Shown here: positions 5,923 through 59,413 of the stretch, piece after piece
How positions within the stretch are numbered: the stretch's first letter is position 1
Layout of the letters: every line of letters begins with the position of its first letter
DNA from: Candidatus Gastranaerophilales bacterium
GTDB lineage: Bacteria; Cyanobacteriota; Vampirovibrionia; Gastranaerophilales; Gastranaerophilaceae
DNA: 64,000 nt
Reading direction: 5' to 3'
Assembly (NCBI GenBank): GCA_944323285.1
Contig: CALURV010000033.1
Span: forward strand, 1 to 64,000
Translations under genes and position numbers: made by a program
Notes under the pieces: generated by a model
The model's input: only the letters and a program-made list of their open reading frames with translations
Databases searched by the model: none
Told to the model about the DNA's origin: nothing

Positions 5923-6105
5923 TGTCCGGGAAAAAATTCACGATAAGATAAAAGTGTGAGTGAATTTTTTTTACAAAACGAACCAAAAACTTTGTTTTTG
6001 AGTAAGCTTGTATCCGTAGTGAAACGAAGATGAGCAGTATTTTCAAAAGTTGAGTACTTTGTTAGCAAGTATGAGACGGTAACAAAGTGCGATACTAGAT
6101 TAAAT
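5923..6105 (+). repeat. Dispersed hairpin repeat, copy 2 (full length)
   Basis: Full-length copy beginning TGTCCGGGAAAAAATTCAC and ending GTGCGATACTAGATTAAAT. It holds stem I (AAAATTCAC/GTGAATTTT, followed by a T-run), stem II (CAAAAAC-TTT-GTTTTTG), a weaker stem III and stem IV (ACTTTGTTA/TAACAAAGT). It starts 22 bp after the radical SAM stop. Together with the fragment at 6115 it fills most of the 335-bp gap before the M16 protease gene. Confidence 0.9.
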
Positions 6106-12192: not shown

Positions 12193-12374
12193 TGACCGAG
12201 AAAAAATTCACGATAAGCAGAAAGTGTGAGTGAATTTTTTTACAAAACGAACCAAAAGCTTTGTTTTTGAGTGAGCTTGTATCCTTCGTGAAACGAAGGT
12301 GAGCAGCGTTCTTAAAAGGTGAGTACTTTGTTAGCGAGGATGAGACGATAACAAAGTGTGATACTAGATTAAAT
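12193..12374 (+). repeat. Dispersed hairpin repeat, copy 3 (full length)
   Basis: Full copy in which all four stems are well formed. Stem I is AAAATTCAC/GTGAATTTT. Stem II is CAAAAGC-TTT-GTTTTTG, where a G-T wobble replaces A-T in other copies. Stem III is CCTTCGT-GAA-ACGAAGG (perfect only here). Stem IV is ACTTTGTTA/TAACAAAGT. It starts 2 bp after a stop codon. Confidence 0.9.
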
Positions 12375-14180: not shown

Positions 14181-14303
14181 TGTCCGAGAAAAAATTTACG
14201 ATAAGCTGAAAGTGTGAGTGAATTTTTTCGAGTGGCATTTTTAAAAGGTAAGTACTTTGTTAGCGAGGATGACTCGGTAACAAAGTGCGATACTAGATTA
14301 AAT
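14181..14303 (+). repeat. Dispersed hairpin repeat, copy 4 (short form)
   Basis: This short form keeps stem I and stem IV but lacks ~60 bp holding stems II and III. The junction reads GAATTTTTTCGAGTGGCATT. The 33-nt stem IV (14254-14286) has the loop orientation AGCGAGGATGACTCGGT. It starts 4 bp after the proS stop. Confidence 0.88.
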
Positions 14304-15435: not shown

Positions 15436-15440
15436 ATTAA

Positions 15441-15556
15441 TAGAGAAAATTCACGATAAGCTGAAAGTGTGAGTGAATTTTTCGAGTGGCGTTTTTAAAA
15501 GGAGAGTACTTTGTTAGCGAGGATGACTCGGTAACAAAGTTCGATACTAGATTAAA
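15441..15556 (+). repeat. Dispersed hairpin repeat, copy 5 (short form)
   Basis: Short form lacking stems II and III, with stem IV at 15508-15540. It starts 5 bp after one stop codon and ends 3 bp before the stop of the convergent gene, so it fills the whole 3'-3' gap. Confidence 0.88.
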
Positions 15557-15559
15557 TAA

Positions 15560-20800: not shown

Positions 20801-20980
20801 TGTCCGAGAAAAATTTACGATAAGCTGAAAGTGTGAGTGAATTTTTTTTACAAAACGAACCAAAAACTTTGTTTTTGAGTGAGCTTGTATCCGTAGTGAA
20901 ACGAAGGTAATTGGCATTTGTAAAAGGTGAGAACTTTGTTAGCGAGGATGAGAAGGTAACAAAGTGCGATACTAGATTAA
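20801..20980 (+). repeat. Dispersed hairpin repeat, copy 6 (full length)
   Basis: Full copy from TGTCCGAGAAAAATTTACG to GCGATACTAGATTAA. It begins 2 bp after one stop and abuts the stop of the convergent 106-residue gene at 20981, filling the gap exactly. Confidence 0.9.
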
Positions 20981-21301
20981 TTAAACTTTTTTATAAATAC
21001 CCATTTCTTCAAGCGCTTTTAAGAAACTTTGAGCAGTGGCTTTTTGAACATCAGGAGGAACAACTCTTAAAAGTTCAACTGTTCTTGATATAACGGGGTC
21101 TTTATCATACCAGCGGTTACAAACTTTAGGTCTGACCATTTCATAAAATTTATCAATAGCTTCTTTTGAAACTTTCTTTTCAATTTCTTGCAGAAAAATT
21201 TCAGCTTGAGATTTTAATTCATTTTGATAGTTTTGAAGAAGGTTAATAACTTCAAGCAAAACAGGATCATGATCGTACCATCTTTTATAATTGTGACTCA
21301 C
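20981..21301 (-). CDS. Small protein with internal duplication, downstream of murA
   Basis: A 106-residue protein containing two copies of a ~18-residue unit: RWYDHDPVLLEVINLL (7-22) and RWYDKDPVISRTVELL (63-78), joined by a helical linker. No known function is recognised, but the duplication and the intact frame argue it is real. Its start overlaps the end of murA by 17 bp, so it is likely translated with murA. A helical protein-protein interaction role is a guess. Confidence 0.7.
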   Translation of the reverse strand: MSHNYKRWYDHDPVLLEVINLLQNYQNELKSQAEIFLQEIEKKVSKEAIDKFYEMVRPKVCNRWYDKDPVISRTVELLRVVPPDVQKATAQSFLKALEEMGIYKKV

Positions 21302-24027: not shown

Positions 24028-25098
24028 ATGAGTGATTATATAATAATTAGTATTTTTATACTGGCAGTGGGGGCTTGTATAGGTAGTTTTTTAAATGTTG
24101 TAGCATTAAGAGCTTTATCTAAAGAATCTATAATTTTCCCTTCTTCAAAGTGTCCGAAATGTTCAAGTCCTATAAAGTGGTACGATAATATTCCTGTTTT
24201 GTCGTATTTTTTAACTTTTAAAGGCAAATGCAGAAGCTGCGGCGAGAAAGTAAGTATTCAATATCCTATAGTGGAGGCTTTAACCTCAATACTTTTTTTA
24301 GTAGTATATTTAACATTTGGTTTAACCTTAAAGACATTGTTGTTGTTAATATTACTTTGTACTGCAATAGTAATAACAATTACAGATATTAGAAAAGAGT
24401 ATGTCTTTGATGTACATAGCTGGATATTTATAATAACGGCTTTGGTATATTCCGTATATTATCATGATGTATATTTTGCTTTTATAGGTTTTATTGGTGC
24501 TGCTATACTTATGGAATTTATCGCAAGAGTTTCTTATTATTTGGTAAGAAAAAATAATGAAGAAAGAGATGAAGACGATAAAGACAAAAAAGAAATAACT
24601 CAAACAGAAGAAAATGAAGAAAATATTGATATTAATGATTATGTAAAGAAGTATAAGAGAGCATTTGGTGAAGGCGATACATATCTGGCTGCAGGTGTAG
24701 GTGCGCTTTTAGGTATAAAATATTTTATTGCAGCAGTTGCTTGTGCAATTATATTTCAAGCAATTTGTGTTTTGCCTCAATTTATAATGAACTTATACAG
24801 AAAAAAGGAAATAAGGCTCCTAATTTCACTTGGCGGATTTATAATTCTGGCAATTTTATATTTCTTATTATCAAATATTTTTAAATTAAACATATTTGTT
24901 ATATTTGGATTTGTTATTGCTTTAATTTTCTTTGCAATAGATACAATCATAAGATTAAAGAATATTGTTAATAATGAAGGATATAAAGCAATACCTTTTG
25001 GTCCTGCATTATTATTTTCAGGATTTATGATTTTATTTTACGGCAGTTATATTGTATATTTTATAAAAAAATACATCTTCTTAATGGTTAATTTATAG
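24028..25098 (+). CDS. Prepilin peptidase / N-methyltransferase (type IV)
   Basis: This integral membrane aspartic peptidase cleaves and methylates type IV prepilins. The N-terminal methylase-type region carries two CxxC pairs (C42/C45, C68/C71). TM helices and the two catalytic-Asp regions follow: TDIRKEYVFD and GEGDTYL (GxGD type). A charged insert of ~45 residues (DEDDKDKKEITQTEENEEN...) sits between them, and the C-terminal region is longer than usual, giving 356 residues. I chose ATG 24028 because GGTGG sits 6 bp upstream; an in-frame TTG at 24016 lacks one. It may work with the PilMN/PilO proteins at 29-31 kb. Confidence 0.88.
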   Translation: MSDYIIISIFILAVGACIGSFLNVVALRALSKESIIFPSSKCPKCSSPIKWYDNIPVLSYFLTFKGKCRSCGEKVSIQYPIVEALTSILFLVVYLTFGLTLKTLLLLILLCTAIVITITDIRKEYVFDVHSWIFIITALVYSVYYHDVYFAFIGFIGAAILMEFIARVSYYLVRKNNEERDEDDKDKKEITQTEENEENIDINDYVKKYKRAFGEGDTYLAAGVGALLGIKYFIAAVACAIIFQAICVLPQFIMNLYRKKEIRLLISLGGFIILAILYFLLSNIFKLNIFVIFGFVIALIFFAIDTIIRLKNIVNNEGYKAIPFGPALLFSGFMILFYGSYIVYFIKKYIFLMVNL

Positions 25099-25099
25099 T

Positions 25100-25221
25100 T
25101 CGAACTAGAAAATTCAATATAAGCTGAAAATGTGAGTGAATTTTTTTGAGTGGTGTTTTTAAAAGGTGAGTACTTTGTTACCGAGTCATCCTCGCTAACA
25201 AAGTGCGATACTAGATTAAAT
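25100..25221 (+). repeat. Dispersed hairpin repeat, copy 7 (short form, inverted stem-loop)
   Basis: Short form lacking stems II and III. Its 5' end is diverged (CGAACTAGAAAATTCAATAT). The 33-nt stem IV (25172-25204) reads the exact reverse complement of the stem IV in copies 4 and 5, while flanks keep normal orientation. It starts 1 bp after the prepilin peptidase stop. Confidence 0.88.
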
Positions 25222-44254: not shown

Positions 44255-44265
44255 ATTTTTTTTGA

Positions 44266-44297
44266 TAATGACTTGTTAACAAAGTGTGATACTAGAT
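44266..44297 (+). repeat. Dispersed repeat, copy 9 (3' end only)
   Basis: Last ~32 nt of the repeat (half of stem IV: TGTTAACAAAGTGTGATACTAGAT), 11 bp downstream of the dgkA stop. Confidence 0.7.
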
Positions 44298-44311
44298 AAA
44301 AAAATTAATAT

Positions 44312-58842: not shown

Positions 58843-58887
58843 ACTGGAAATTATCCAGTAACTTTATGTTAACATATCCAGTAAGAT
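58843..58887 (+). promoter_or_regulatory. Operator and leaderless promoter of first XRE gene
   Basis: An ACTGGA-N5-TCCAGT palindrome (58843-58859) precedes two TATCCAGTAA direct repeats (58852-58861, 58875-58884), 23 bp apart. A -10-like TAAGAT (58882-58887) ends 6 bp before the ATG, so the transcript is probably leaderless. No ribosome site is seen. Confidence 0.55.
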
Positions 58888-58893
58888 AAGTAA

Positions 58894-59112
58894 ATGAATC
58901 TTCAACAATTTTATGTAAAGCTTGGGAAAAGAATAAAAGAACTGCGAGAAGAAAAAGGATATAGCCAACAAATTTTGGCTGAAAAAGCAGATATTAGTAT
59001 AGATTATTTGGGAAAAATTGAAGTAAATATAAATAATCCTGGTCTTAAAAGTGTATTTAAGATAGTAAGAGCATTAGATATTTCTTTTGAGGAATTTTTT
59101 AAAAGTATTTAA
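58894..59112 (+). CDS. XRE-family regulator (HTH), first of tandem pair
   Basis: A 72-residue single-domain HTH_3 repressor (LGKRIKELREEKGYSQQILA core). It is about 57% identical by eye and equal in length, without gaps, to the protein encoded at 59195. It shares with it an operator arrangement and promoter spacing. Probably self-regulating. Confidence 0.85.
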   Translation: MNLQQFYVKLGKRIKELREEKGYSQQILAEKADISIDYLGKIEVNINNPGLKSVFKIVRALDISFEEFFKSI

Positions 59113-59152
59113 AAATGAAAAAAAATAAATACTTAAATAAAACACGGTAATA

Positions 59153-59188
59153 TATCCAGTAAAAATATGTTAATATATCCCATAAAAT
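59153..59188 (+). promoter_or_regulatory. Operator and leaderless promoter of second XRE gene
   Basis: TATCCAGTAA (59153-59162) and TATCCCATAA (59176-59185), again 23 bp apart with TATGTTAA between. TAAAAT (59183-59188) sits 12 bp before the ATG, the same spacing as for the first gene. Confidence 0.55.
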
Positions 59189-59194
59189 TTTTAA

Positions 59195-59413
59195 ATGAGT
59201 TTTGAAAATTTTTATAAAAATTTAGGGAAAAGAATAAAACAGCTAAGAGAGGAAAGGCATCTTACGCAAGAGAAACTTGCAGAATTAGCAGGCATAAGTT
59301 TAGATTATTTAGGCAAGATAGAAATAAGCCTAAATAGACCCGGGTTAATTACATTATTGAAAATATCAAAAGCCCTTGATATCTCTATGGAAGAATTATT
59401 TGAAACATTGTAA
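59195..59413 (+). CDS. XRE-family regulator (HTH), second of tandem pair
   Basis: A 72-residue HTH_3 repressor (LGKRIKQLREERHLTQEKLA) paralogous to the previous gene. Both the coding region and the upstream operator block look duplicated together. No ribosome site is seen before the ATG. Confidence 0.85.
   Translation: MSFENFYKNLGKRIKQLREERHLTQEKLAELAGISLDYLGKIEISLNRPGLITLLKISKALDISMEELFETL

Follow-up and report, generated by a model that had tools for sequence, protein, structure and literature searches.

The window analysed here, a stretch of 64,000 nucleotides from a Candidatus Gastranaerophilales bacterium (contig CALURV010000033.1, positions 1 to 64,000), contains copies 1 to 8 of a small repeat, and in copy 7 the terminal stem-loop is turned around within its own flanks. 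This raises the question of how so short a segment can be inverted exactly and in place. Our data favour replication template switching at the hairpin, by which the spacer would be inverted where it stands, and we consider this explanation likely.

This repeat, a small dispersed element lying between genes and rich in hairpins, has apparently been undescribed until now. It extends from TGTCCGAGAAAAAATTCAC to GATACTAGATTAAAT and is found in a short form of about 122 nt and a long form of about 183 nt. As single-stranded DNA it has two clear hairpins: stem I, composed of AAAAAATTCAC, an 18-nt loop and GTGAATTTTTT with about 12 pairs including poly-A/T, and the terminal stem (stem IV), which has perfect 9-bp arms and four inner pairs. 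The 3' end of the element is present in at least 112 copies in the source genome (G000, 1.86 Mb), the congener G035 has about 76 copies of the element, and five further congeners have one copy each. No copy was found in other genera of the family among 191 sampled genomes, nor in the phage, plasmid and viral collections searched, and an Rfam search of the window gave no family match at gathering score. The overlap with a gene-size open reading frame is not above 60 nt in 81 of the 84 copies checked. Orientation to the neighbouring genes is random, for which reason a transcript role as terminator or UTR was rejected; an attC-like site was also rejected, the core motifs, as judged by eye, being in reverse order. 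At the 5' ends of the element across the genome, the base four positions before TGTCCGAG is A in 92% of the copies and no target-site duplication was detected above shuffles, a hint that the target is fixed or that the 5' end extends further.

Long forms lie in the window at 1310-1492 on the reverse strand (copy 1, in which the stem IV interior is one base shorter) and on the forward strand at 5923-6105 (copy 2), 12193-12374 (copy 3) and 20801-20982 (copy 6), the latter three with a forward stem IV in the variants GAGACGG, GAGACGA and GAGAAGG, respectively. The short forms, all on the forward strand, are found at 14181-14303 (copy 4), 15436-15557 (copy 5) and 25098-25221 (copy 7, which has a divergent 5' end), and copy 8 (44263-44300, forward strand) is a 3'-end remnant alone. 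Since the proteins of G000 and G035 are mostly about 90% identical or more, and gene order is common to both, these sites can be compared between the two species. In G035, copy 3 is represented by a deletion remnant only and copy 6 by an internally deleted remnant, and the site orthologous to the short copy 5 has the long form, which suggests that short and long forms may interconvert. The site of copy 7 is empty in G035 (21 nt where G000 has 147) and in several other congeners.

Stem IV of copy 7 (25172-25204, forward strand) reads ACTTTGTTACCGAGTCATCCTCGCTAACAAAGT, composed of ACTTTGTTA CCGAGTCATCCTCGC TAACAAAGT with the inverted 15-nt interior at 25181-25195, and stem IV of copy 4 (14254-14286) and copy 5 (15508-15540) reads ACTTTGTTA GCGAGGATGACTCGG TAACAAAGT in the forward orientation. 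Direct comparison confirmed that over all 33 nt the former corresponds exactly to the latter two in reverse complement, and that the flanks of copy 7 are normally oriented, as the original prediction had held, GAGT preceding the stem-loop and the GATACTAGATTAAAT end following it. Given the palindromic arms and the self-complementarity of CGAG/CTCG, just seven of the 33 positions (two outer G's and five loop bases) are informative on orientation, and all seven are switched in copy 7. Forward copies deviate from the consensus at about 9% of the orientation-informative positions (93/1043), and by our own arithmetic from this rate the probability of the seven specific point mutations is about 2e-11 per copy. 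Forward and inverted single strands fold into the same 13-pair hairpin.

The flip is not unique to copy 7, a point missed in the original prediction, but affects about 20 copies altogether, and the second hairpin as well. Of the scored copies in which the interior measures 15 nt, 8/94 in G000 and 12/71 in G035 have an inverted stem IV, and a fully palindromic junction (L023) was excluded from these counts; at about 1500-1563 of this locus two element 3' ends meet head to head, giving a long palindrome with only one stem IV interior at its centre. The distribution of orientation over 169 copies is bimodal, with 21 rows inverted (0-1 of the 7 forward letters) and 148 not inverted (at least two forward letters and at most two inverted letters). 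Intermediates explained by point mutation, named beforehand as the observation that would speak against a flip, were sought across these 169 scored copies, and there was no intermediate class. Stem I is inverted in 7/87 copies in G000 and 11/70 in G035, and its arms (TTCAC/GTGAA) have no sequence in common with those of stem IV. In the G030 subfamily a stem I inversion is indistinguishable from an opposite-strand reading of the palindrome. GAnG-type interiors are rarer among inverted than among forward copies (1/20 versus 43/143; Fisher p 0.02 for CTCG-like versus GAnG interiors, with relatedness of the copies ignored). The predicted hairpin energy does not differ between forward and inverted copies, and thus gives no indication that flipping depends on stem stability.

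Such numbers could also arise if one or a few flips had occurred and the inverted copies had then been propagated as a subfamily by transposition or gene conversion. For stem I there is a sign of this, as some of the inverted copies (two at L002 together with L143, L148 and L152) are near neighbours forming a small cluster, and their close relationship indicates that part of the stem I inversions is inherited. For stem IV, however, a weakly resolved tree of the copies, built without the terminal stem, requires 16 changes for the 17 inverted copies, as against 16.3 with shuffled labels, and for 16 of the 17 a forward copy is nearest, joint-nearest or second to one. The stem IV flips moreover occur in both forms of the element, short as well as long, and with many different interiors. 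An inverted stem IV subfamily is thus not supported by this tree, and propagation is in our estimation quite unlikely to explain the pattern; the scatter of the inverted copies on the tree makes most stem IV flips look like independent events.

One probable site has different orientations in the two species. At L094 (G000) both stems are forward and at L135 (G035) both are inverted, with both flanks in common, which makes a flip in place probable, the copies being diverged and their orthology itself only probable. The other clear orthologous pairs of copies agree in orientation. One of these pairs, L107/L159, has an inverted stem I in both species beside a 249-nt flank of 100% identity, and thereby also bears on whether the flips are errors of assembly or consensus. 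The relatives are metagenome assemblies, the source genome (36 contigs) is probably one too, and the genomes are rich in repeats, all of which would invite such errors. Against this, inverted stems carry private substitutions and are found in two separately assembled species, and they should be short enough for ordinary reads to span. Assembly error is therefore extremely unlikely.

The position of the endpoints can be read from three inverted copies in G035 (L134, L135 and L138), whose right arm carries AAAC, mirroring the TTTG on the left of forward copies. That this arm mismatch moves with the flip places the switch points within the outer eight arm bases, and upholds the proposal that flipping takes place between the ACTTTGTTA and TAACAAAGT arms. 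As regards polarity, the related subfamilies in G030 and G013 have a terminal stem of different sequence, in which the changes are compensatory (20 double-changed cells versus 7.4 in shuffles), and retain the G.G mismatch and the loop (GATGA, GGTGA or GAGGA). The hairpin itself is kept across subfamilies, and since they keep the forward loop polarity, the forward state is taken as ancestral and the inverted one as derived. The loci L195-L199 (G030, G013 and G009) have the 5' part in common with the element, and also the 3' CTAGATTA where this was read, and their terminal stem is equally long, differs in sequence with changes that compensate each other, and conserves the G.G mismatch.

These features are in line with replication template switching. 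The element, whose hairpins constitute inverted repeats separated by short spacers, would at some time in the past have spread in two related Gastranaerophilales species. In the course of replication or repair, the nascent strand would switch within one of the arms to the complementary strand, copy the spacer together with the inner stem in the reverse sense, and switch back in the other arm, which would leave an exact, same-length inversion in place. We infer the template-switch step itself, and also that the flips are largely neutral. As would be expected from such a process, the flips are exact and of the same length within unchanged flanks, the arms of both hairpins pair perfectly over some 9 bp or more (9 bp in stem IV and about 12 pairs in stem I), and the inversion of both stems shows independence from any one arm sequence. 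Outside the element, 289 informative inverted repeats common to G000 and G035 gave no clear inversion and one weak candidate, a comparison which hardly discriminates, with only 23 of them having arms of at least 9 bp.

The mutation class is known, and what we describe is a new instance of it in a multi-copy bacterial repeat. In yeast (Saccharomyces), a switch of template from one arm of an inverted repeat to the other leads to spacer inversions, which have been attributed to intermolecular template switching and reported only for arms >9 bp (PMC8604942), so that stem IV, with its perfect 9-bp arms, lies at the low end of these cases. The yeast inversions are likewise exact and of the same length, lie between short perfect arms, and are recurrent and parallel, but they concern single-copy protein genes and 2-5 substitutions (PMC8604942), whereas here a multi-copy intergenic repeat with two hairpins acquires at least seven diagnostic changes per flip. 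Loop inversions in rRNA hairpins, bacterial examples included, have also been ascribed to template switching, and are similar in that only the loop of a perfect hairpin is inverted; those are rare events in functional RNA genes, in contrast to about one copy in ten here (PMC8794818). The small inversions of plastids, one of which has a 9-bp stem and a 5-bp loop, are also recurrent and mostly intergenic flips of hairpin loops, but were found by comparing single-copy organelle loci across species and not among dispersed copies of a repeat (PMC6824564).

As to cause, the original prediction had left the choice between strand exchange at a cruciform and a site-specific recombinase acting on the repeat; our data support a strand switch at a hairpin and do not support the recombinase. 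A recombinase inverting the segment between the arms, as in phase-variable invertible DNA, would account for exact inversion bounded by exact inverted arms. However, a segment of 33 bp is too short for ordinary synapsis in cis, and flips are about as frequent at one as at the other of two hairpins whose arms are unrelated, which is not the behaviour of one recombinase with one site; on these two grounds such an enzyme is very improbable. Nor does a gene for one adjoin copy 7, the neighbours of which are a prepilin peptidase gene and recA, and since the copies lie between genes and at random orientation to them, there is no sign of a promoter or gene being switched.

A different enzymatic origin of the flip would be the activity that mobilises the element, for instance one that handles folded single-stranded ends and that, at a cruciform or in the course of insertion, would occasionally join a hairpin back onto the wrong strand. 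REP/BIME and the palindrome-associated elements derived from IS200/IS605 are short, dispersed, intergenic and hairpin-bearing, and keep a stem mismatch. Our element is similar in all these respects and in that target-site duplication was not detected, and it has a hairpin with a conserved mismatch near its end, as do the IS200/IS605-derived REP-RAYT and PATE elements. It differs from them in being longer, in having a long and a short form, and in the absence of a Y1 transposase, as a search of G000 (about 97% complete) gave no match to PF01797. Mobilisation as such is suggested by the difference in element sites between species, and covariation of the terminal hairpins across subfamilies with the G.G mismatch and loop kept is what one would expect if the end is recognised in hairpin form. 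On the other hand, the Y1 (IS200/IS605-type) transposase is absent, a mobilising gene was not found, the stem-IV-inverted copies do not form a separate spreading group, and the L094/L135 pair suggests a flip at a fixed site. Inversion by the mobilising enzyme therefore appears rather unlikely. It is tempting to speculate that the flips are the work of an element-specific enzyme that handles hairpins and recognises the hairpin ends, with their conserved G.G mismatch and loop, on one strand, so that inversion, by moving the hairpin to the other strand, would switch a copy between mobile and immobile states, but we hold this to be improbable.

Hairpin spacer inversions are usually found singly. 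With more than 100 copies and two hairpins each in related genomes, the element amounts to a natural replicate experiment, which yields the per-copy frequency of flipping (about 11-12% at each hairpin), shows arm sequence to be irrelevant, and offers sites for a population test. One flip introduces seven or more apparent substitutions at once, and this misleads trees and covariation analysis.

Some observations concern the surroundings of the copies. At L064:1610-2920 and at L131, element copies adjoin the gene for a phage terminase large subunit (PF04466), in DNA that hardly differs between both species, and some copies may travel with prophage. At L083 and L128, the DNA beside an element copy shows 100% identity over about 1.27 kb between two species which elsewhere are about 90% identical, suggesting recent transfer. 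Further along the window, at 58843-59409, two small genes for helix-turn-helix-like regulators lie adjacent to each other and have duplicated upstream sequence.
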